Position numbers and translations under genes: made by a program
Shown here: in pieces, positions 1,486 to 25,724 of the stretch
Layout of the letters: every line of letters begins with the position of its first letter
Numbering within the stretch: the stretch's first letter is position 1
IMG/VR virus record: IMGVR_UViG_3300025314_000091
Coordinates: 1-25,724 of that record
Length of the DNA: 25,724 nucleotides
Origin: a virus
Strand: one strand, 5' to 3'
Notes under the pieces: model-generated
The model's database searches: none
The model's input: the letters and a program-made list of their open reading frames with translations, nothing else
What the model was told of the DNA's origin: nothing

Positions 1486-3815
1486 CACCGTATCACCCTC
1501 CAATTCACGACAAGCCCCGTGGGAATTAGCGCGGCCCCCGTGGGATTGCAAACCCGCCAGTTCACGTTGTTCGTGCTCACGTAAGGGCTCAGAATGAGCT
1601 TCCCATCCGGTATGCTTGGCACGCTGGCATACGCCCACGCAATGCTATCCGTGGACAATGCATTCGCTGCGGCGGTTGTAACGACAGTAGGGCAAGCTCC
1701 GGCGGATACGGACGAACTCCCAAGCGCCGATGTCCCACTCGCAATGATAACCGGGACCGTGCCTGACACATTTTGAAGCGTCTGCACGCGGTTTCCTGTG
1801 GCGGCGGCGGAGGTCAGCACGACACTGTTCGCACCGCTGTTCCAAACAATTGGCGCGGTACTTTCAGGGAAGATGACACCATCCGCCGCGATTGTCGTGC
1901 CCCTGAATGTGGTGTTGGTATAGCTTGATGATCCTGGTGCTCCGGTCGTCTCGGGAAAGGTAATTGCCGGGCCTGTTGCGCCGGAACGGTAGACATATCC
2001 GTTTGAAAAAGGATTACTCAAGGACGAATTGTTGCTTAGCCCCAAGGCAATCACTCTCGCTCCACCCTGCTGCTTAATGAATTGAGAGATGGATGCATTG
2101 CTGTTGACAATTTCAGCACCATCAATGTGCAAGTATTCGGCGTTCCCAGTACTGCTACCGATAGTGATAATCTGGGCCGGAACGGCCCCAGAGGAGCAAT
2201 TATTGACGAATTGCGCATCAAAAATGCTCATTCGCCCGCGATTGAGAACAATCCAATCGTTAGATGTACAGCCGGTAGGGGTTCCCGCGATGGCCTCAAA
2301 GTGCGGACTGTACATGGTGATGTGGCCATCATTTTGGACAAGTTGACAGGAGTCAAAGCTGGGGGCATACATCTTAAGATGACTGCCGTTGTCCAGTGTA
2401 AAGCAGTTTACAGGCATGGCGAGAAGGTTGCTGCCTAGCTTAATTCGGTCAAAGGTGACATTTTCACTGCCGCCAGCGACGCTTGCAGGGAACACGATGT
2501 TTTGATCATTATTCATAATCGCCGAGTTCCGTACTGTCCATGTCATGCAATTATCTGATTGCAAAATCCCATAGTAGAAACCTTCAATATCCAAGCCTTC
2601 TAGAATGGCCCCCTCGCACCCATTCGCTCCTCCCATCACGACTCCCTGCGCGGTGCCTGATGCTGGTCCTAAAAGGACGATGTTGCGCAGGCCGCTTCCA
2701 TAAAACTGCTGGCTGCCGTTGCGGGGAGAAATGGAACCAAGCCCTCCCATGCCTGGATTGAAGGTAATAGCTGCACCACTTGTGGCCGTATAGTGGATAC
2801 AAGTGGCATTTGGCGTCCCTGCTAACAGCACTGGTTTCTGGTTTATACCAAACACAATGGGTGTTGTGAATTCAACACAAGACCCATCGCTGCTTGGCGT
2901 GATAACAATGGTCCCACCTGCGGGTGGCAGATCAGCGTAAGCAGCGTTTACCTTCGCCCCTATGTCCGCCCCCGTAAAATTCTCGGCATAGCGTGTTTCT
3001 TGAAACACCGATGCGGTAAGGATGCCAGCGGAAATGTTCCAGCGCAGTGCTGGCGATCCCAAGCTCTGCGCCCCGCTTGCCGCTGGGAGCAGGCCGCCTC
3101 CAAGCGTGAGAGCATAGTTCCCAATGGTGGTTTGGTTAGCATTGGGATTCTTGACCAATGCGTCACCGACAACCGTCGTAAGAACCACGTTTCCACCGTT
3201 CATCACGATGCATCGTCCTGATTGCGCAATAGTGAAGGTAACGGTCGTGGTGTTAGCATCAGTCAAGATAACGGTATCAGGATAAAGAACTTGGCCCAGC
3301 GTCGTGGAGCATTGTGCGATGACGTTGGGGTCGCCGAAATTATGTAGAATCGTCCACGTCAGCGCATTCGCGGCCTGTGTGTGAACGTAAGACTTAGCTC
3401 CAAGGATATAGTTGGATGCAAGAGGTGTTATATTTATGGGTGTCGCTGCCGAAAGATCGAATGTTGCGGACTCGATCCTGTAGTCAGCGCAACGATATTG
3501 AGCGGATTTCACGAAAATACAGACACGATAAAAGGTCCCGGATGGTGTGATATAGTCGTTACGAATGATGTTTCCGCTGATTGCCCCGCTGCCATTGGGG
3601 ACGAATTTTTTGACGGGATCGGCGTTGATGCTAGATGACACGATACGCGGGATGAATCCCCCAAAACCGCGCAGCTCGAATTGGACATAGGTGTTTTGGG
3701 AGACAATGGCCGTGTTGCTTACATCACGCAGACTCCCGCTCACTGCCGCTGTTTGTGCGGGCATCAAGACAGGGAATAGGAGCATTAACGCTAAAAATGG
3801 AATGAGCCTCTTCAT
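1485..3815 (-). CDS. Tail spike-like beta-helix protein with Sec signal peptide
   Basis: A 776-residue protein. The N-terminus reads MKRLIPFLALMLLF then PVLMPAQT: basic n-region, long hydrophobic core and a plausible cleavage site near PAQ, hence a Sec signal peptide. About residues 25-270 are Thr/Val/Asn-rich beta structure. From roughly residue 285, ADIGAKVNAAYADLPPAGG followed by TIVI matches the start of the pectate-lyase-like right-handed beta-helix found in phage spikes and family-28-related hydrolases. The next 300 residues have the short Asn/Gly-rich turns typical of that fold. Several Cys residues are present. The C-terminus (about 620-776) looks like a trimerisation or fibre tip. 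The gene is coupled upstream by ATGA to a 56-codon gene and downstream by TGATG. The likely role is receptor binding or polysaccharide degradation. The export signal is unusual for a particle component and leaves a secreted enzyme possible. Confidence 0.75.
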   Translation of the reverse strand: MKRLIPFLALMLLFPVLMPAQTAAVSGSLRDVSNTAIVSQNTYVQFELRGFGGFIPRIVSSSINADPVKKFVPNGSGAISGNIIRNDYITPSGTFYRVCIFVKSAQYRCADYRIESATFDLSAATPINITPLASNYILGAKSYVHTQAANALTWTILHNFGDPNVIAQCSTTLGQVLYPDTVILTDANTTTVTFTIAQSGRCIVMNGGNVVLTTVVGDALVKNPNANQTTIGNYALTLGGGLLPAASGAQSLGSPALRWNISAGILTASVFQETRYAENFTGADIGAKVNAAYADLPPAGGTIVITPSSDGSCVEFTTPIVFGINQKPVLLAGTPNATCIHYTATSGAAITFNPGMGGLGSISPRNGSQQFYGSGLRNIVLLGPASGTAQGVVMGGANGCEGAILEGLDIEGFYYGILQSDNCMTWTVRNSAIMNNDQNIVFPASVAGGSENVTFDRIKLGSNLLAMPVNCFTLDNGSHLKMYAPSFDSCQLVQNDGHITMYSPHFEAIAGTPTGCTSNDWIVLNRGRMSIFDAQFVNNCSSGAVPAQIITIGSSTGNAEYLHIDGAEIVNSNASISQFIKQQGGARVIALGLSNNSSLSNPFSNGYVYRSGATGPAITFPETTGAPGSSSYTNTTFRGTTIAADGVIFPESTAPIVWNSGANSVVLTSAAATGNRVQTLQNVSGTVPVIIASGTSALGSSSVSAGACPTVVTTAAANALSTDSIAWAYASVPSIPDGKLILSPYVSTNNVNWRVCNPTGAALIPTGLVVNWRVIR

Positions 3816-15746: not shown

Positions 15747-16352
15747 CTAGCTCAACAAGGAATAGACGATGCCAATGCGGTAGCCACCTAAAGGGAATAT
15801 CTCATGGGAGACCAACTTGTGACCGCCAAGGGACGGCCAATGCTTGAGGTCATCCTCGGAGAAGGACCATTGGTGATCGCCGCCCGATAAATCGCCGCCG
15901 ACATCGCCATCAATGGGATGAGAGATAATCGCAGCAAAGGAACGGGAGAGCCACTTCCTCGCAAGCGTTTCGGGGTCGCTTATGTGTTCAAGGGCCTCGC
16001 AGAGAACGAGGATGCTGGAACTGTGGGGCTCGACTTCCTCAACGTTGGCGTGCTGAAAGAGACCATTGGGAAAGCGTTCTAGCGCCTTCTTGAGTGATTC
16101 GCGGTTGCAGTCATAACCCATGATATTGTGCGTGGTTGCCTCGTGGCCGCTAATGTCAGCAGTTCCACAGCACAACTCGGTTATCAGGAGCGGCCATCTG
16201 GTCATCGGGAACGTGGAGATGGCGCGATGAAGATATTCACGGGACCTAGCAATGCGCTCCTTGTGAACATCGTCCCACTCGTAAACACGAATGGGAAGAG
16301 AAGCATGATGCGCCGTTCCTTCGATGCTAGTGCGAGGTTTTAAGGATTTCAT
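15747..16352 (-). CDS. Class I SAM-dependent methyltransferase (second of the cargo module)
   Basis: A 201-residue protein from MKSLKPRTSIEG; its ATG overlaps the epimerase stop as ATGA. LLITELCCGTADIS (about residues 55-68) is the glycine-containing SAM-binding motif I. IMGYDCNRESLKKALERF follows with the acidic residue expected at the end of strand 2. ILVLCEALEHISDPETLARK (about 114-133) is the E-x-x-E-H motif of the methyltransferase 11/12/23 group. HPIDGDVGGD and a final GGYRIGIVYSLLS give the late strands. The substrate is unknown; next to an epimerase and a glycosyltransferase, a sugar or sugar-linked acceptor is likely. It is the last gene of the module. Confidence 0.75.
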   Translation of the reverse strand: MKSLKPRTSIEGTAHHASLPIRVYEWDDVHKERIARSREYLHRAISTFPMTRWPLLITELCCGTADISGHEATTHNIMGYDCNRESLKKALERFPNGLFQHANVEEVEPHSSSILVLCEALEHISDPETLARKWLSRSFAAIISHPIDGDVGGDLSGGDHQWSFSEDDLKHWPSLGGHKLVSHEIFPLGGYRIGIVYSLLS

Positions 16353-17299
16353 TTTAGAGAATTGATGACCCGGTGGATGCCATCCTCCAACGAGATAGCG
16401 GCGTGAAACCCACAATCCTCACCACGGCTGATGTCGGCAACACGATAGAGAGAACCGATTGGTTTTCCAGCGGCTGTGTGGACTTTTGGGTGGTAGCCGA
16501 CAGCCCGGCTCATTATTTGAACGAGTTCCACGAACGTTTTGCCATCGCCAGTTCCAATGTCAATTGCCTCGCCTATTGGGAACGCGCCCTCAACTGCCAT
16601 CACAATCGCTCGCACGAGATCATCGATATAAATCCAGTCACGCACAGTTTCCGTGTTTCCCCATATCGCAACAGGGTCATCATGGCGCGTAACCCTTTGG
16701 AGAATCGCGGGGAATGGATATTCAAGCGACTGACCAGGACCATATCCGCTGAACGGGCGCAGGATTGTGATTGGCACTCCCTTTTGCGCAAGCGTCGTGG
16801 CGAATCGCTCGCCAACGTATTTCACGAATGCGTAGTTTTCGGTGTCTCTAGCATCCACTGCGCAGGAAGACATCCATACGGCTCGCTGGCGAGGCGGCCA
16901 GCGTTCAAGATACTGCGCCATCGCATAGTCAAGAGTGATGTCGTCAAAAGCAGCGACGCCCATCTTGTTGCGGGAGTCAATGTTGGACTTGGTGAGATTG
17001 GCCCCAAGGTGGAGAACAACATCAAACTCTTCGTCTCGCGGCCATCTGCGCACTTCACACCAATTCTGAAACGTGCAGCGATGTTGATAGTGACGGCTTC
17101 CCAATAAGCAGTCTCCATCATTGCGGGGGTCTATTGTAGTCAAAGCATAACCAGCCTTATATAGTGCTGGCACCACCGCTTTCCCAAGGAAACCCGCGCT
17201 CCCCGTTATCAACGCGGTATTCGGCGCTTTGCTGCGAACCTCCGGAGGCCGCAGAATGTAATTAGGAATGTCAAGTCCGGGCAGGGTTGAGTTTGTCAT
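16349..17299 (-). CDS. NAD-dependent epimerase/dehydratase (extended SDR)
   Basis: A 316-residue protein from MTNSTLPGLDIPNY, with ATG coupled by ATGA to the small membrane-protein gene. ITGSAGFLGK (about residues 31-40) is the TGxxGxxG NAD(P)-binding fingerprint. The catalytic set is complete: Ser about 143-144 in WMSSCAVD, Tyr155 and Lys159 in YAFVK. LRPFSGYGPGQ and DWIYIDDLVRAIVMAV are hallmark motifs of sugar-nucleotide epimerases. Family members act on UDP-, GDP- or dTDP-sugars. Here it probably prepares a donor for the neighbouring glycosyltransferase. Length is normal and nothing looks broken. Confidence 0.85.
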   Translation of the reverse strand: MTNSTLPGLDIPNYILRPPEVRSKAPNTALITGSAGFLGKAVVPALYKAGYALTTIDPRNDGDCLLGSRHYQHRCTFQNWCEVRRWPRDEEFDVVLHLGANLTKSNIDSRNKMGVAAFDDITLDYAMAQYLERWPPRQRAVWMSSCAVDARDTENYAFVKYVGERFATTLAQKGVPITILRPFSGYGPGQSLEYPFPAILQRVTRHDDPVAIWGNTETVRDWIYIDDLVRAIVMAVEGAFPIGEAIDIGTGDGKTFVELVQIMSRAVGYHPKVHTAAGKPIGSLYRVADISRGEDCGFHAAISLEDGIHRVINSLK

Positions 17300-17487
17300 T
17301 TGATCCACCACGCATAAATTCCGAATACAATCATGGTCGTGCCAGCAACAAGCAAAAGAATAAACCAAGTCATTCTTGAGAAAATCAAATAGCTTGGGCA
17401 TCCAGCAGAAGTAGAGGAACATTTGACAGGCACTGCAAGGATACCGGCTGCCCGAACGACCCGCCTGTGTTTGTGCTTTCTACCCAT
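17296..17487 (-). CDS. Small basic one-helix membrane protein of the cargo module
   Basis: A 63-residue protein. Its ATG lies within the final codons of the methyltransferase gene (8-base overlap ATGGGTAG) behind a GGAGAG, and its stop overlaps the epimerase ATG as ATGA. Precise coupling on both sides argues that it is a real gene. The first 40 residues are basic and Cys-containing (MGRKHKHRRVVRAAG). The last 25 form one membrane helix (MTWFILLLVAGTTMIVFGIY) ending WWIK. An alternative start at that internal Met (17373) would give a 25-residue helix only. It may anchor the sugar enzymes to the membrane; function unknown. Confidence 0.5.
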   Translation of the reverse strand: MGRKHKHRRVVRAAGILAVPVKCSSTSAGCPSYLIFSRMTWFILLLVAGTTMIVFGIYAWWIK

Positions 17488-21466: not shown

Positions 21467-22381
21467 CTAGTAGCCGACGCTAGAATACACGGGAACGAAC
21501 TCATCGAACAAGCCGCCCATCGCGGGACGGACAAAACTGGGCCTCGCGGTCCAAATATAATGGCGAGCATCAATCAAATGCTTGCGGTAGGTTTTGGGTT
21601 TCTCTTGTCCTGGCCGCTCAACGACTCCAGAAGGATAGCGAACATTGGCATATTCGTTCCTCAACTCAACACAGGTCTTGAACACGCGGGACAGTGGAAT
21701 CATCATCTCCCCATTCGTGGTCATGGCCGGGGAGGGCAGCATTCTCTCACCAATTGCGTCCCTCGCGGCAGCAAGCGACTGCTGACTCTTGAGCGCCGGA
21801 TAGAATGATAAACCATGTTTGCGATACGCCTCGAAAAAGTCGCCACCCTCGTCGCTGTTGGCTGCCGAACCGTGAGTGTCCATGATGCGCTTGATAGTAC
21901 GAAGATGATGGCCATTAGACCATCCAAACGAGTGCGGTTTGACGTGACTGTCGGACTCAATCCAATTTATAACCTGGGCATATTCACGGACGCTATATTG
22001 CTCGCTGGGCCAAAGCTCGCCGCACACCACACTGTCCCCACTCTGCGAGAAAGCCTCCCACAGAAATCCATGCGGGGTTCTCATGTGCGGGTCGCAACCC
22101 ATCCAAACACTCCACTCACTTGGATTGCTGACATCAAAGGGATCACAGTCCACGGCGTCCGGCTTGTACTCGCCATACATCAGCTCACCCTCGGTGGCCC
22201 AAGGGTCAATCTCCATCTCTTGCATCCATCTGGCTTCGCTTGCATATTTGGCGCGCAGAGCGGCAATGCGCTCTGGCGTCATGGAAGCATCGGCGTCATA
22301 ATGCACGCGAAGAACGCCAATTCCGGCACCAGGGCAGCCAGCGGGAATACGGCGAAGCGTTACACCCTTGGTTGGACTCAT
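21467..22381 (-). CDS. Large terminase, nuclease-domain polypeptide (split from the ATPase)
   Basis: A 304-residue protein if it starts at ATG 22381, which overlaps the ATPase stop as ATGA; GTG 22393 is an alternative. It carries only the C-terminal half of a large terminase. There is an entry region (MTPERIAALRAKYASEARWM, EIDPWATEGELMYGEY), then EWSVWMGCDPHMRTP with the first nuclease Asp (about residue 97). DSHVKPHSFGWSNGHHLRT follows, and late on HLIDARHYIW with the last conserved Asp (about residue 271) of the RNase-H-like nuclease. The joining frame is minus one relative to the ATPase gene and no slippery heptamer is visible. A natural two-polypeptide enzyme, or a frameshift in the assembly, are both possible. 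Confidence 0.75.
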   Translation of the reverse strand: MSPTKGVTLRRIPAGCPGAGIGVLRVHYDADASMTPERIAALRAKYASEARWMQEMEIDPWATEGELMYGEYKPDAVDCDPFDVSNPSEWSVWMGCDPHMRTPHGFLWEAFSQSGDSVVCGELWPSEQYSVREYAQVINWIESDSHVKPHSFGWSNGHHLRTIKRIMDTHGSAANSDEGGDFFEAYRKHGLSFYPALKSQQSLAAARDAIGERMLPSPAMTTNGEMMIPLSRVFKTCVELRNEYANVRYPSGVVERPGQEKPKTYRKHLIDARHYIWTARPSFVRPAMGGLFDEFVPVYSSVGY

Positions 22382-23100
22382 GCGTAAGGCCACTCCACTT
22401 CCTGCGCGGGCCGCGTCAGTTCGCAGAAATCAGATGGCTTGACGCTGCTAATAGCGACCATCTTAGGAACCCGCGTGGCCAACGCGACGTCCAAAGCCTC
22501 GCCAAACTTTTCATGATCCGCAGCTTCATCGAAGAAAACAATTGTCGGGTGGTAGCCGCGAATCTTATCGGGATTTTTACCGGGCAGCGCAACACCACGC
22601 GAGCCATTTTTGAATTCCATGATGTTATACGCCTGTTTATCACGCGGGCGATCAATGGGCCAAAGTTGCTTGAGATATTCGTCCTGCTGCTCCCAAAGCG
22701 TCCAGCAATAGTCAAGCGGAATCAAGGATCGCTCTTCGTCCTGCGCCATGAAAATCGCGGTTGTTGCAGGAACCGTCATTTCCGCATGAAGGCAGAGAGC
22801 CGCGCAGAACCACGTAGCCATCAGTGTGCGGGATTTCTCAATAAGCAAGACAGGCTCAGCTTTCCATGCCGCAGCGATGTCAGCAAAATACGCACGCATG
22901 GGAAAGGGCTTATATGGGTGCTCCGCATCCTGTTCATCCTTTGTTTTCGTATGTTTTTGCATCCACGTCAATGGGTCCACTATCGGGGCCGCTTGTGGAT
23001 TGTGATGCAAGAACAATCTTCGCTCGTCCGGCGTCAAGGAATCCCAGATTGATCGTAACCCCCCCAAACTGCCCACCAGACTGGCTTGTTGGATCGACAT
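22378..23100 (-). CDS. Large terminase, ATPase-domain polypeptide
   Basis: A 240-residue protein, start 23100 behind GGAG six bases upstream, inside the small-terminase gene. PIVDPLTWMQKHTKT (about residues 39-53) is the conserved N-terminal segment of many large terminases. LLIEKSRTLMATW (about 85-97) is a deviant Walker A of the K-S-R type. IVFFDEAAD (about 187-195) is Walker B with catalytic Glu, and KMVAISSVK (about 213-221) is the coupling motif III. The nuclease half is absent and follows as its own gene. It is the motor that pumps DNA into the head. Length matches an ATPase domain cleanly cut at the linker. Confidence 0.8.
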   Translation of the reverse strand: MSIQQASLVGSLGGLRSIWDSLTPDERRLFLHHNPQAAPIVDPLTWMQKHTKTKDEQDAEHPYKPFPMRAYFADIAAAWKAEPVLLIEKSRTLMATWFCAALCLHAEMTVPATTAIFMAQDEERSLIPLDYCWTLWEQQDEYLKQLWPIDRPRDKQAYNIMEFKNGSRGVALPGKNPDKIRGYHPTIVFFDEAADHEKFGEALDVALATRVPKMVAISSVKPSDFCELTRPAQEVEWPYA

Positions 23101-23590
23101 TCAAGGCTCCGGATTTATCAAGAATCTTCATGGCAACTTCTTTGTCGTTGTTGTTGAGATGAATCTCGGCAACATCCACCGCCTTGGGGATAAGCCCAGC
23201 GATGCGCGACTTCGATACTTCCATGATGCGAGTGATGTTGCTCTTACGCAGAATGTTGCTGACGGTTTGCGGACTGATTCGGCAGTCGCGCGCGATGTCC
23301 CGGTAACTAAATCCTTCAAGATACTTGGCGACGACAAACTTGGTCATGCGTTCGTTGACCGGGGATTCACCTTTGGGAATCCTGCCACGGCCTCGCGGCG
23401 GCGCAGCCTGCCACTTATCAAGCATGGCTTCGGTTTCTTGCTCGGCAATCTCTTCCAGCGTCGGAGGCGGGGGCGGCACAGCGGCGAGTTCGGCATACTT
23501 TCGGATGCGCTCGCTGCGGGTGGCGGGATCGAAATACCTGGTCACGTTTTTCAAAGCTCCTCTATTTGAAGCTAAGGCCGACAATTTCAT
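22934..23590 (-). CDS. Small terminase subunit with helix-turn-helix
   Basis: A 218-residue protein from ATG 23590 (MKLSALASNRGALKN); a TTG four codons earlier is possible. After a linker rich in Pro and Glu (VPPPPPTLEEIAEQETEAM) and a basic stretch (PPRGRGRIPKGES) comes a helix-turn-helix. This is MTKFVVAKYLEGFSYRDIAR then CRISPQTVSNILRKSNITR, roughly residues 82-120, suited to recognising the packaging start site. A helical oligomerisation part follows (AVDVAEIHLNNNDKEVAMKI). The last 55 residues are encoded in DNA that also encodes the ATPase N-terminus. Position directly before the large terminase makes this the DNA-recognition subunit. Confidence 0.75.
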   Translation of the reverse strand: MKLSALASNRGALKNVTRYFDPATRSERIRKYAELAAVPPPPPTLEEIAEQETEAMLDKWQAAPPRGRGRIPKGESPVNERMTKFVVAKYLEGFSYRDIARDCRISPQTVSNILRKSNITRIMEVSKSRIAGLIPKAVDVAEIHLNNNDKEVAMKILDKSGALNVDPTSQSGGQFGGVTINLGFLDAGRAKIVLASQSTSGPDSGPIDVDAKTYENKG

Positions 23591-23632
23591 TATCACATCC
23601 AAGCCCCACCATTGTTGCTTGATAGCGCACCA

Positions 23633-23989
23633 TCACATCTTCTCCATTCGCCCGCCGGATTTATACGCCGGAACACTGCGTCCCTCTCTGCGAAGGTAAC
23701 TGAGCAAAATCGCCTTCGCCTGTTTCTTCTTGCGAACAATCTTACCGCCCTTGCCAGAATGGAGTCTCCTAGCTTCGAAGAGCGGCATGACATCACCAGA
23801 AGGCATCTCAACACCTCCACCTTGCAGTCCGTCCTCCTCTAACACAGTGAGCGCGTTTCTCAATTGCCGCATCAGTTCCTTTTGAGACTCTCTGCTCGTC
23901 GGAACGGAACCGTTCATATGCCCTTCATGCAGGGCAATCGCTTTCTTCAACCATCGGATCGCGCTCTGTCCCCACGCACTATAATTCAT
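23633..23989 (-). CDS. First leftward gene: small basic unknown protein
   Basis: A 118-residue protein. I choose ATG 23989 (MNYSAWGQSAIRWLKKAIAL) because a perfect GGGAGGA lies just upstream; an in-frame ATG at 24037 has no such signal and falls in a structured leader. The N-terminal half is helical (SRESQKELMRQLRNALTVLE), the middle holds MPSGDVMPLFEARRLHSGKG, and the end is very basic (KIVRKKKQAKAILLSYLRRE). A nucleic-acid-binding role beside the packaging genes is plausible but not shown. No known family recognised. Confidence 0.6.
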   Translation of the reverse strand: MNYSAWGQSAIRWLKKAIALHEGHMNGSVPTSRESQKELMRQLRNALTVLEEDGLQGGGVEMPSGDVMPLFEARRLHSGKGGKIVRKKKQAKAILLSYLRREGRSVPAYKSGGRMEKM

Positions 23990-24020
23990 GTGTCCTCCCG
24001 AGTGGCATCCGCCATAATTG

Positions 24021-24093
24021 GCAAGGGCACCCACCATCCCATTGGGAGTGAGGAGGCAGGCCGCATGAGCGGCGATGGGCGGGGTGCCCTTGC
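24021..24093 (-). promoter_or_regulatory. 73-base structured leader element before the first leftward gene
   Basis: A perfect 12-bp inverted repeat, GCAAGGGCACCC (24021-24032) with GGGTGCCCTTGC (24082-24093), encloses a second stem CCATC/GATGG (24034-24038, 24074-24078) and a hairpin GCCGC-ATGA-GCGGC (24060-24073). In the leftward transcript the unpaired interior contains CCTCCT (complement of 24051-24056), which can pair with the GGGAGGA ribosome site of the gene starting at 23989, only about 30 bases downstream. No T-run follows, so it is not a plain terminator. It could be a translational switch or a protein-binding site. Confidence 0.55.
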
Positions 24094-24389: not shown

Positions 24390-24528
24390 GTACATAGCTG
24401 TGTGCCACCTGGGGATTTCGACCGTCCGCAGCGAGTTCAGCAAGGTGACTGGCACGATACAGATGGACGACAAGAACATCGCCAAGGCCACCGTAGACGT
24501 GACCATCGACACGGCAACGATGAATAGG
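24390..24528 (+). pseudogene. Degraded YceI-like domain remnant
   Basis: Positions 24400-24528 encode HLGISTVRSEFSKVTGTIQM followed by DDKNIAKATVDVTIDTATMN, which matches the central strands of the YceI lipocalin-like (polyisoprenoid-binding) family. Just upstream VHSCV (24390-24404) in another frame fits the preceding family motif (VHSxVxFSVxHLG), so a few codons and the frame have been lost. The similarity stops abruptly after MNR, near the leftward promoter. No start codon or Shine-Dalgarno is present. It is a gene fragment, most likely of cellular origin. Confidence 0.65.
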
Positions 24529-24542
24529 TGCGTAACAAGCAG

Positions 24543-24571
24543 AGCATACAGGACTTACCGCAATTTTTCAA
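24543..24571 (-). promoter_or_regulatory. Candidate main leftward (late operon) promoter
   Basis: On the minus strand TTGAAA (24566-24571) and TATGCT (24543-24548) are exactly 17 bases apart, with an A/T-rich stretch upstream of the -35 that could act as an UP element. Transcription would begin near 24536 and run through a leader of about 545 bases into the gene at 23989 and the packaging and virion genes. This is the best sigma-70-type match on the minus strand of the control region. Confidence 0.5.
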
Positions 24572-24585
24572 AATAATTTTTGAAA
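24566..24585. promoter_or_regulatory. AT-rich palindrome over the leftward -35
   Basis: TTTCAAAA-TAAT-TTTTGAAA is a perfect 8-bp inverted repeat with a 4-base centre. It covers the -35 hexamer of the leftward promoter and the bases behind it, so a dimeric regulator bound here would block or recruit polymerase. Its sequence is unrelated to the GTGACA palindromes, implying a second regulator. Confidence 0.4.
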
Positions 24586-24601
24586 TTTTACCAGCGGTGT
24601 G

Positions 24602-24674
24602 TGGCGGTAGCCTGCATTGCACTAGCAATACCCACCCCATGTCTTTGGGGTACCCGTACTAGTACCTACCGCCA
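24602..24674. repeat. 73-base cloverleaf-like inverted-repeat element
   Basis: An outer 9-bp stem, TGGCGGTAG (24602-24610) with CTACCGCCA (24666-24674), encloses three smaller inverted repeats. These are ATTGC-ACTA-GCAAT (24616-24629), ACCCCA-TGTCTT-TGGGGT (24634-24651) and GGTAC...GTACC (24649-24666); the last two overlap by three bases, so they compete. It does not have the anticodon loop or the TTCRA T-loop of a tRNA on either strand. DNA cruciform, origin-type element or structured RNA are all possible. Confidence 0.5.
24656..24668. repeat. 13-bp inverted repeat, left copy
   Basis: GTACTAGTACCTA here is the exact reverse complement of TAGGTACTAGTAC at 25143-25155. Both copies contain the palindrome GTACTAGTAC or its core. 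The pair brackets the operator array, with about 490 bases between. Confidence 0.45.
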
Positions 24675-24811
24675 AGTTAACATAATACATCTTATAGGAC
24701 ACACTCAAGTAAGTCCCTTGCTATCACATAGATACAAGCAACAGTGCGGAGTACATCACCCCCATAAGCCATTCCCGAGCATGACGTGAAGGCAGCACTG
24801 GTATCCATTGG

Positions 24812-24828
24812 GTGACATTTTGTGTCAC
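24812..24828. promoter_or_regulatory. Isolated 17-bp palindromic operator-like site
   Basis: GTGACATTTTGTGTCAC, identical to the third site of the main array and sharing flanks (GGGTGAC... through ...CACTTGC). It lies about 170 bases left of the array, a distance suited to DNA looping. Confidence 0.55.
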
Positions 24829-24954
24829 TTGCGCGCGCGTCGGCCCACTCGTGGTAGGGAGCAATAGGTGAGGAGTAGTAGATTAGTTTAGGTACATCTT
24901 TTCATATATGGATTTTAATAGATTGCGAAGATTTCACGATTTGGGTGCCGTATG

Positions 24955-24983
24955 AGTCTATGGGTCTTTTGGCGCACACACAA
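24955..24983 (-). promoter_or_regulatory. Weak candidate leftward promoter beside the operator array
   Basis: On the minus strand TTGTGT (24978-24983) and TAGACT (24955-24960) have a 17-base spacer. The -35 abuts the first palindrome of the array, as in divergently repressed promoters. The hexamers are imperfect. Confidence 0.25.
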
Positions 24984-25062
24984 GTGACACTTTTTGTCAC
25001 AGTGACACTTTTTGTCACATGGGTGACATTTTGTGTCACTTGCAAGTGACATTTTTTGTCAT
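24984..25062. promoter_or_regulatory. Cluster of four 17-bp palindromes (operator or iteron array)
   Basis: Sites at 24984-25000 and 25002-25018 (both GTGACACTTTTTGTCAC), 25023-25039 (GTGACATTTTGTGTCAC) and 25046-25062 (GTGACATTTTTTGTCAT). Each is GTGACA-N5-TGTCAC, with a T-rich centre always on the same strand, and start-to-start steps of 18, 21 and 23 bases. CACTTGCAAGTG (25037-25048), a further 12-bp palindrome, joins the last two. Arms fit a dimeric DNA-binding protein. The uniform orientation of the centre also fits replication iterons. No binding-protein gene is visible in the window. Confidence 0.65.
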
Positions 25063-25069
25063 CTACTAT
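25040..25069 (+). promoter_or_regulatory. Candidate rightward promoter with an operator in its spacer
   Basis: TTGCAA (25040-25045) and TACTAT (25064-25069) are 18 bases apart, and the spacer is filled by the fourth palindrome (25046-25062). Binding there would exclude RNA polymerase. Transcription would start near 25076 and reach the gene at 25245. Confidence 0.4.
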
Positions 25070-25142
25070 GGCATACGGGGTGTGTCTATTTGTTCACACT
25101 TGCATTTTGACTGCCGTATGGGAATAACTATTTTTGCGAAAC

Positions 25143-25155
25143 TAGGTACTAGTAC
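25143..25155. repeat. 13-bp inverted repeat, right copy
   Basis: TAGGTACTAGTAC, the reverse complement of 24656-24668. It lies just upstream of the second rightward promoter candidate. Confidence 0.45.
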
Positions 25156-25166
25156 ATAGATTTCAC

Positions 25167-25196
25167 TTGACACGAGTAGCTGGTTTGTTCTAGATT
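25167..25196 (+). promoter_or_regulatory. Candidate rightward promoter close to the divergent gene
   Basis: TTGACA (25167-25172), a perfect -35, is followed after 18 bases by TAGATT (25191-25196). Start of transcription would be near 25203, leaving a leader of about 40 bases before the ATG at 25245. Confidence 0.5.
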
Positions 25197-25244
25197 CGTT
25201 GCTGGGACGAATGCAAGGCGAACGCCCAGGAAGGGAAGCAAAAA

Positions 25245-25724
25245 ATGAGAGACCGCGCGGTCGTATACACCGACGGACAGTCATCATATTCGCCCCGCTG
25301 CCAGGATGCGCGAGCGGGCGGTAGGCTGCCCCTCGGCCAGGCTGCCACGCGCGTGCGGCAACTCTGCAAGGCGGCGGGCAAAAAGGTGACGCTGCTGGCC
25401 GCAAGGGTCGCACTCCGCGATACGCATGACGGTGAGTGGCATCACACCTCGCGCTACGCCAATCGCACTGACTACTACGATGTCGCGGCGGCGGTCGCCT
25501 GGGCGACGCGGACTCCCGCTACGAAGCGGCTGGAAGAAATGCGGGCGGCGATGCGAGCGGCCACGCTCCAGCGTCCGAAGCAGCGCCCCCACGCAAGATC
25601 CACCTACGACTACGTGGCGGTGGCCATGCAGAGAGCGGGCGCGCACCCCGATCTTCTCTACGCTATTCGGGTTCGAATGCGGTCGGGCGAGCGCGACATC
25701 CGCGCAGCTATGGCGCGTCACGCC
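25245..25724 (+). CDS. Rightward gene of unknown function, 3' end beyond the window
   Basis: An open frame of 160 codons from ATG 25245 to the right edge with no stop, preceded by AGGAAGG at good spacing and by a TTGACA promoter. It is the only plus-strand gene. The protein starts MRDRAVVYTDGQSSYSPRC and continues with RVRQLCKAAGKKVTLLAARV, GEWHHTSRYANRTDYYDVAA and a long basic helical part rich in Arg and Ala (LEEMRAAMRAATLQRPKQRP). No catalytic motif is recognised. Divergence from the late operon suggests the first gene of the early or replication region. Its G+C and Arg content seem higher than those of the neighbouring control DNA. Confidence 0.7.
   Translation, partial: MRDRAVVYTDGQSSYSPRCQDARAGGRLPLGQAATRVRQLCKAAGKKVTLLAARVALRDTHDGEWHHTSRYANRTDYYDVAAAVAWATRTPATKRLEEMRAAMRAATLQRPKQRPHARSTYDYVAVAMQRAGAHPDLLYAIRVRMRSGERDIRAAMARHA

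Follow-up and report, generated by a model that had tools for sequence, protein, structure and literature searches.

Genes and noncoding region at the locus

The window, here the entire viral record of 25,724 bases, contains a leftward operon of terminase and structural genes, among them one for a SU10-type major capsid protein (MCP). The first gene of the operon (23633-24037, minus strand; 134 aa, with a weak match to DUF6496) starts about 950 bp from the palindrome array described below. It is followed by a gene for a helix-turn-helix (HTH) protein (22934-23602, minus strand; HTH_23 or sigma70 region 4-like HTH), by position probably the small terminase subunit (TerS). The large terminase subunit (TerL; 21467-23100, minus strand) starts at 23100, about 1.9 kb from the array, and is read leftward from two overlapping ORFs, 22378-23100 and 21467-22393. 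These lie in different frames, as would result from a frameshift, a sequencing error or a split gene. A gene for a NAD-dependent epimerase/dehydratase (16349-17422, minus strand) is located within the structural cluster, near ORFs resembling sugar or methyl transferases.

On the other side of the array a single rightward ORF (25245-25724, plus strand; 160 codons, GC 0.68), without family or database matches, is cut by the end of the contig. The gap between the leftward operon and this ORF includes an A+T-richer noncoding region (24560-25244, GC 0.44). No regulator gene was found in the record. Peptide patterns derived from TerL, MCP and ORF 25245 retrieved no close relatives among viral contigs, and the cultured phages and plasmids searched provided only weak capsid matches and no useful relative.

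The palindrome array

The noncoding region contains five copies of a 17-bp palindrome, GTGACA-N5-TGTCAC (GTGACANNNNNTGTCAC). Four copies are perfect (24812-24828, 24984-25000, 25002-25018 and 25023-25039), while the one at 25046-25062 (GTGACATTTTTTGTCAT) carries a single mismatch, its final C being replaced by T. The last four form an array, with start to start steps of 18, 21 and 23 bp, and 172 bp separate its start from that of the isolated copy on its left. As proposed in the initial annotation, this isolated copy might permit looping. The first two array sites are identical (GTGACACTTTTTGTCAC); the third array site repeats the isolated copy (GTGACATTTTGTGTCAC in both), within 24 shared bases (TGGGTGACATTTTGTGTCACTTGC) that correspond to 25020-25043 in the array. 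In all five palindromes the T-rich centre (YTTTK) is oriented the same way.

The initial annotation had listed these five palindromes, with their steps and the single orientation of their centres, as confined to one noncoding region; the pattern scan and the ORF map bear this out. No further copy with 0 or 1 mismatch exists in the window, and a tolerance of up to 3 mismatches yields 18 matches over its whole length, vs 9.7 +/- 3.2 in shuffled sequences. Perfect sites never appeared in 2000 mononucleotide shuffles of the noncoding gap.

Other repeats are located around the array. A second palindrome, GTACTAGTAC, occurs twice, at 24656-24668 and 25143-25158, thus flanking the array, and its core ACTAGTAC is absent elsewhere in the window. 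Repeats of TGCCGTATG are found on either side as well, at 24940-24954, 25069-25077 and 25106-25120, one of them being inverted and partial.

Promoter-like sequences in the window

Three promoter-like sites of the sigma-70 type were detected in the region, vs 1.1 +/- 1.2 in shuffles. One of them, TTGACA-N18-TAGATT (25167-25196, plus strand), points right, away from the array, and its match to the consensus makes it a candidate promoter of ORF 25245. A weak one, TTGAAA-N17-TATGCT (24543-24571, minus strand; 9/12), points left, to the packaging operon.

Sigma-54 promoters were searched, here and in other genomes, by using the established -24/-12 consensus TGGCACGNNNNTTGCW, fixed beforehand. None was found near the window array: the best leftward candidate, ATGGGGTGGGTATTGCTA (24623-24640, minus strand), scores 5.8 and is probably no promoter, the 95th percentile of shuffled sequences being 6.6 and the array-linked promoters used for the profile scoring at least 15.3. 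Along with this candidate, two others were discarded, one at 25100-25117 and one, a degenerate CGGCACCCAAATCGTG, at 24935-24950.

Tandem arrays in other viruses

Arrays of the same kind were searched by using the pattern TGACANNNNNTGTCAN{2,12}TGACANNNNNTGTCA, which describes two TGACA-N5-TGTCA sites within 12 bp. At least 119 stretches of viral contigs match it, vs 3 for the reversed control pattern. An arbitrary 15-mer matches 33 stretches, a count from which less than one chance match is expected for the tandem pattern. Among 368 Gammaproteobacteria genomes a single one contains a tandem array, at a prophage-like locus, and none was found in 20 control virus records. Tandem TGACA-N5-TGTCA arrays are virus-specific and nearly absent from cellular genomes.

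Most of the arrays are intergenic, and the flanking genes transcribed outward belong mainly to large and small terminase families. A phrog_2 terminase is present in 16 of 30 array records; in every one of the 16 it is transcribed away from the array, and in 12 it is located within 2.5 kb of it (binomial P ~3e-12). The window shares both sequence pattern and layout, with more than one tandem TGACA-N5-TGTCA site, A/T-rich centres and a terminase operon transcribed away within a few kb, and is assigned on these grounds to a class of terminase-side TGACA-N5-TGTCA phage arrays defined in the present work. This position upstream of terminase genes, conserved across unrelated phages, was not foreseen in the initial annotation. 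No description of the class was found in the literature searched. Present at one and the same place in dozens of unrelated environmental phages, the arrays probably serve them in common as a switch for late genes, apparently not described so far.

The nearest matches with full GTGACA arms include three loci (L125, L127 and L129) located beside terminase operons or late genes, without a sigma-54 promoter. Cultured relatives of the array phages, identified through their terminases, do not carry the array; a match in the P2-like phage ACA1 was rejected, being made up of overlapping degenerate sites with no promoter. In a comparison of 20 array genomes, the only genes in common were those of structural families and of one related group; neither a common regulator gene nor a shared family of small DNA-binding proteins was found.

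Association with sigma-54 promoters

Near the arrays (within 300 bp), sequences matching 11 or 12 of the 12 consensus positions of a sigma-54 promoter reach 0.60 per kb, vs 0.007 per kb in the remainder of these loci. Such promoters point away from the array in 32 instances and toward it in 4. The spacings between array and promoter cluster near 42, 53, 64, 75, 88, 97 and 109 bp and thus recur about every 11 bp, a periodicity that random spacings did not attain. Within a set of 83 intergenic arrays, a clear sigma-54 promoter faces away in 40 and toward the array in 6, a large effect even though the loci are partly non-independent, some of them coming from one phage group. In the 37 arrays with a sigma-54 score below 8, a good sigma-70-like promoter was found facing away in 11 and toward in 1.

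As far as sequence can tell, an array combined with a sigma-54 promoter has the anatomy of the enhancer sites of NtrC-type activators. Many relatives of the window array feature a -24/-12 promoter at 40-110 bp, as is the case for the upstream activating sequences (UAS) of the NtrC family. None of the 30 array records codes for an enhancer-binding protein, so that a host factor is likely.

A candidate binding protein

In the 368 bacterial genomes, the combination of one site and a sigma-54 promoter was found in four places, three of them in one genome. At one of these places, in a gammaproteobacterial genome, some 50 bp separate a perfect site from a downstream promoter which matches the consensus at 12 of 12 positions and precedes two type IV prepilin-like reading frames; another pilin adjoins them. 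A near-perfect site and a promoter are found in the corresponding position in a second genome from this order, whose pilin is 86% identical, but the site is missing from most of the order's other pilin loci. Pilin genes are controlled in several bacteria by PilR, a sigma-54 activator (PMC3262810, PMC6058289, PMC3224663). Sites matching the array precede pilin genes in the two genomes. UAS bound by enhancer-binding proteins of the NtrC family, such as PilR at pilA, also resemble the array class in their 6-bp inverted arms, N5 centre and copies arranged in tandem to one side of the promoter.

Since site and sigma-54 promoter precede genes of the kind which PilR controls in several bacteria, this host activator of the NtrC family is the best candidate binder for the sigma-54-linked arrays, through a link made by two related genomes. 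Differences from the pilA arrangement are that the window has no sigma-54 promoter and that the genes regulated in its relatives would be phage terminase operons. The palindromic sites of regulators compiled in one survey do not match.

Interpretation of the array

The five palindromes are best explained as stacked sites for a dimeric HTH transcription regulator, which would control the packaging operon, the divergent rightward gene, or both; we assign to this reading a probability of about 0.5. The region would thus work as a control region between the leftward packaging and structural operon and the rightward gene, and its array would be a member of the recurrent phage class, with TGACA-(A/T-rich N5)-TGTCA sites upstream of terminase. 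Binding of a dimeric protein to a stacked array, already proposed in the initial annotation, is well supported by the constant N5, the A/T-rich centre and the tandem, noncoding and recurrent arrangement of the sites. The sites, their position and recurrence, the orientation of the terminases and, for other members of the class, the association with sigma-54 were read directly from the sequences, and from them we infer control of the late operon by the window array. Points against this reading are the distance of about 950 bp to the first gene of the packaging operon, with a cellular gene fragment in the gap, the absence of a regulator gene from the record, the lack of a sigma-54 promoter near the array, and the failure to find either close relatives that would show conservation or arrays in the cultured phages related by terminase.

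In about half of the class the array would serve as a UAS, in most cases 40-110 bp upstream of a sigma-54 promoter, and in these members it would be bound by a host enhancer-binding protein of the NtrC family, e.g. PilR. More tentatively, many environmental tailed phages may time their packaging or late operon through the host sigma-54 polymerase and a PilR-type activator, recruited by TGACA-N5-TGTCA enhancer arrays, with the window carrying such an array and being, or descending from, a member of the class. Use of sigma-54 or PilR in the window itself is doubtful, because no recognizable -24/-12 promoter is found there. Transcription in the window may instead depend on a sigma-70-type promoter, as seems to be the case for other members of the class, or its promoter could have been lost through a rearrangement adjoining the array.

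The recurrent terminase-side array, often linked to sigma-54, is a more interesting result than the window array itself. A single short DNA word marks the control region of the late operon in numerous phages, unrelated to one another and for the most part uncultured. If the reading based on sigma-54 and PilR is true, virion production would be tied to a host regulon for surface organelles, and the word would be a simple means of looking for late promoters and candidate hosts, i.e. T4P-bearing bacteria with RpoN. Even without sigma-54 and PilR, the array would represent a testable control element for phages lacking cultured relatives.

Alternative explanations

A replication origin, in which the palindromes would be iterons for a lambda-O-like initiator and melting would take place in the adjacent A+T-rich DNA, is a rather unlikely explanation for the window array, despite a close similarity in architecture. 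The iteron of lambda O, TCCCTC-AAAAC-GAGGGA, has 6-bp arms and a 5-bp A-rich centre (PMC7466680), and the window shares with such iterons the tandem 17-bp dyads, the arm length, the A/T-rich N5, the conserved outer G/C and the A+T-rich flanks. Moreover, the exact 17-mer, or tandem sites, occur in Phage_rep_O genes. The 17-mer is frequent in IMG/VR, where most copies fall inside one prophage gene family, so that counts of exact matches taken alone are misleading, reflecting mostly O-gene iterons; the tested genes of this family are Phage_rep_O, and cultured examples are annotated as replication protein O. Arms identical to those of the window, GTGACA and TGTCAC, are found in the O genes of Enterobacteria phage mEp043, Salmonella phage SEN22 and Shigella phage Sf101. 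By homology and position, the 17-mer of lambdoid phages is thus predicted to be an origin iteron. In O-type phages, however, the iterons lie within the initiator gene and typically vary in spacing, with few N5, whereas the window array is noncoding, is placed on the terminase side, has N5 in 5/5 sites and has neither O-like neighbours nor an O gene in the record. In addition, phages with terminase-side arrays show no enrichment of O-like initiator families, which indicates that the origin reading does not extend to this class. Replication iterons, one of the two functions suggested in the initial annotation, do have real backing as a rival reading in the O genes of lambdoid phages, which carry this 17-mer.

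The other function suggested there, a lambda-type operator set, received no specific support, as the record lacks a repressor/cro pair. Operators for a phage-encoded repressor (cI/Cro of lambda or similar), acting on divergent early and late promoters, would account for the closely stacked sites with a distant copy, and lambda OR/OL are indeed similar to the window in their stacked 17-bp palindromes, steps of about 20 bp and distant copy. Sigma-70-like promoters adjoin the array, ORF 25245 on the right being faced by one of them, and in the arrays without sigma-54 such promoters, where present, are likewise mostly oriented outward. The reading is nonetheless unlikely: neither repressor, Cro, integrase nor immunity region is found in the record, whose contig ends 660 bp right of the array, the presence of the same site in many unrelated phages speaks against one phage-specific repressor, and no small DNA-binding protein family is common to the 20 array genomes. 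Still less can be said for a packaging-initiation (pac) site, bound by a small terminase subunit with a sigma-70 region 4-like HTH, a very improbable reading of the sequence data. The array is found closely upstream of TerS and TerL in many phages, and the TerS-like protein of the window has an HTH, but the same site adjoins unrelated TerS families and is also found in O genes and before pilin genes, and a pac function would leave the link to sigma-54 unexplained. It is also improbable that the array is not phage DNA, the sequence right of about 24040 being cellular (a provirus edge) or a chimeric join. A fragment of the YceI family (PF04264, E 7e-8; 24397-24525, plus strand), with no intact gene around it, suggests cellular DNA by the packaging operon. 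From about 24040 rightward GC is 0.61, then 0.44, then 0.68, vs 0.52-0.56 in every structural gene; GC3 reaches 0.76 in ORF 25245, and the trinucleotide distance of 24540-25724 is outside the range of the rest of the window. Phage genomes, however, are often mosaic, the position upstream of terminase matches that of other phages, and cellular genomes contain tandem arrays far less often than viral contigs do, a rarity which argues for phage DNA. Candidates for the DNA right of 24040 are mosaic phage DNA, the edge of a provirus and a chimeric join.

Further repeats at other loci

Some additional repeats were observed. Lambdoid prophage Phage_rep_O genes (L200, L088, L154, L374 and the 17-mer family of IMG/VR) contain GTGACA-N5-TGTCAC iterons within the coding sequence. 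At L129, three CTAGCAAATTGCTAG-like palindromes are located at 3404-3632, between the array and the TerS-like gene, besides the TGACA pair. In two Desulfobacteraceae loci (L128 and L130) perfect tandem GTGACAATTTTTGTCAC sites are found between genes of the chromosome, close to one for a GTPase (Der-like). Finally, four loci belonging to one group of phage contigs (L142, L147, L161 and L173) contain a different repeat, AAATTTTTTGACA-N5-TGTCAAA, in several copies per array.
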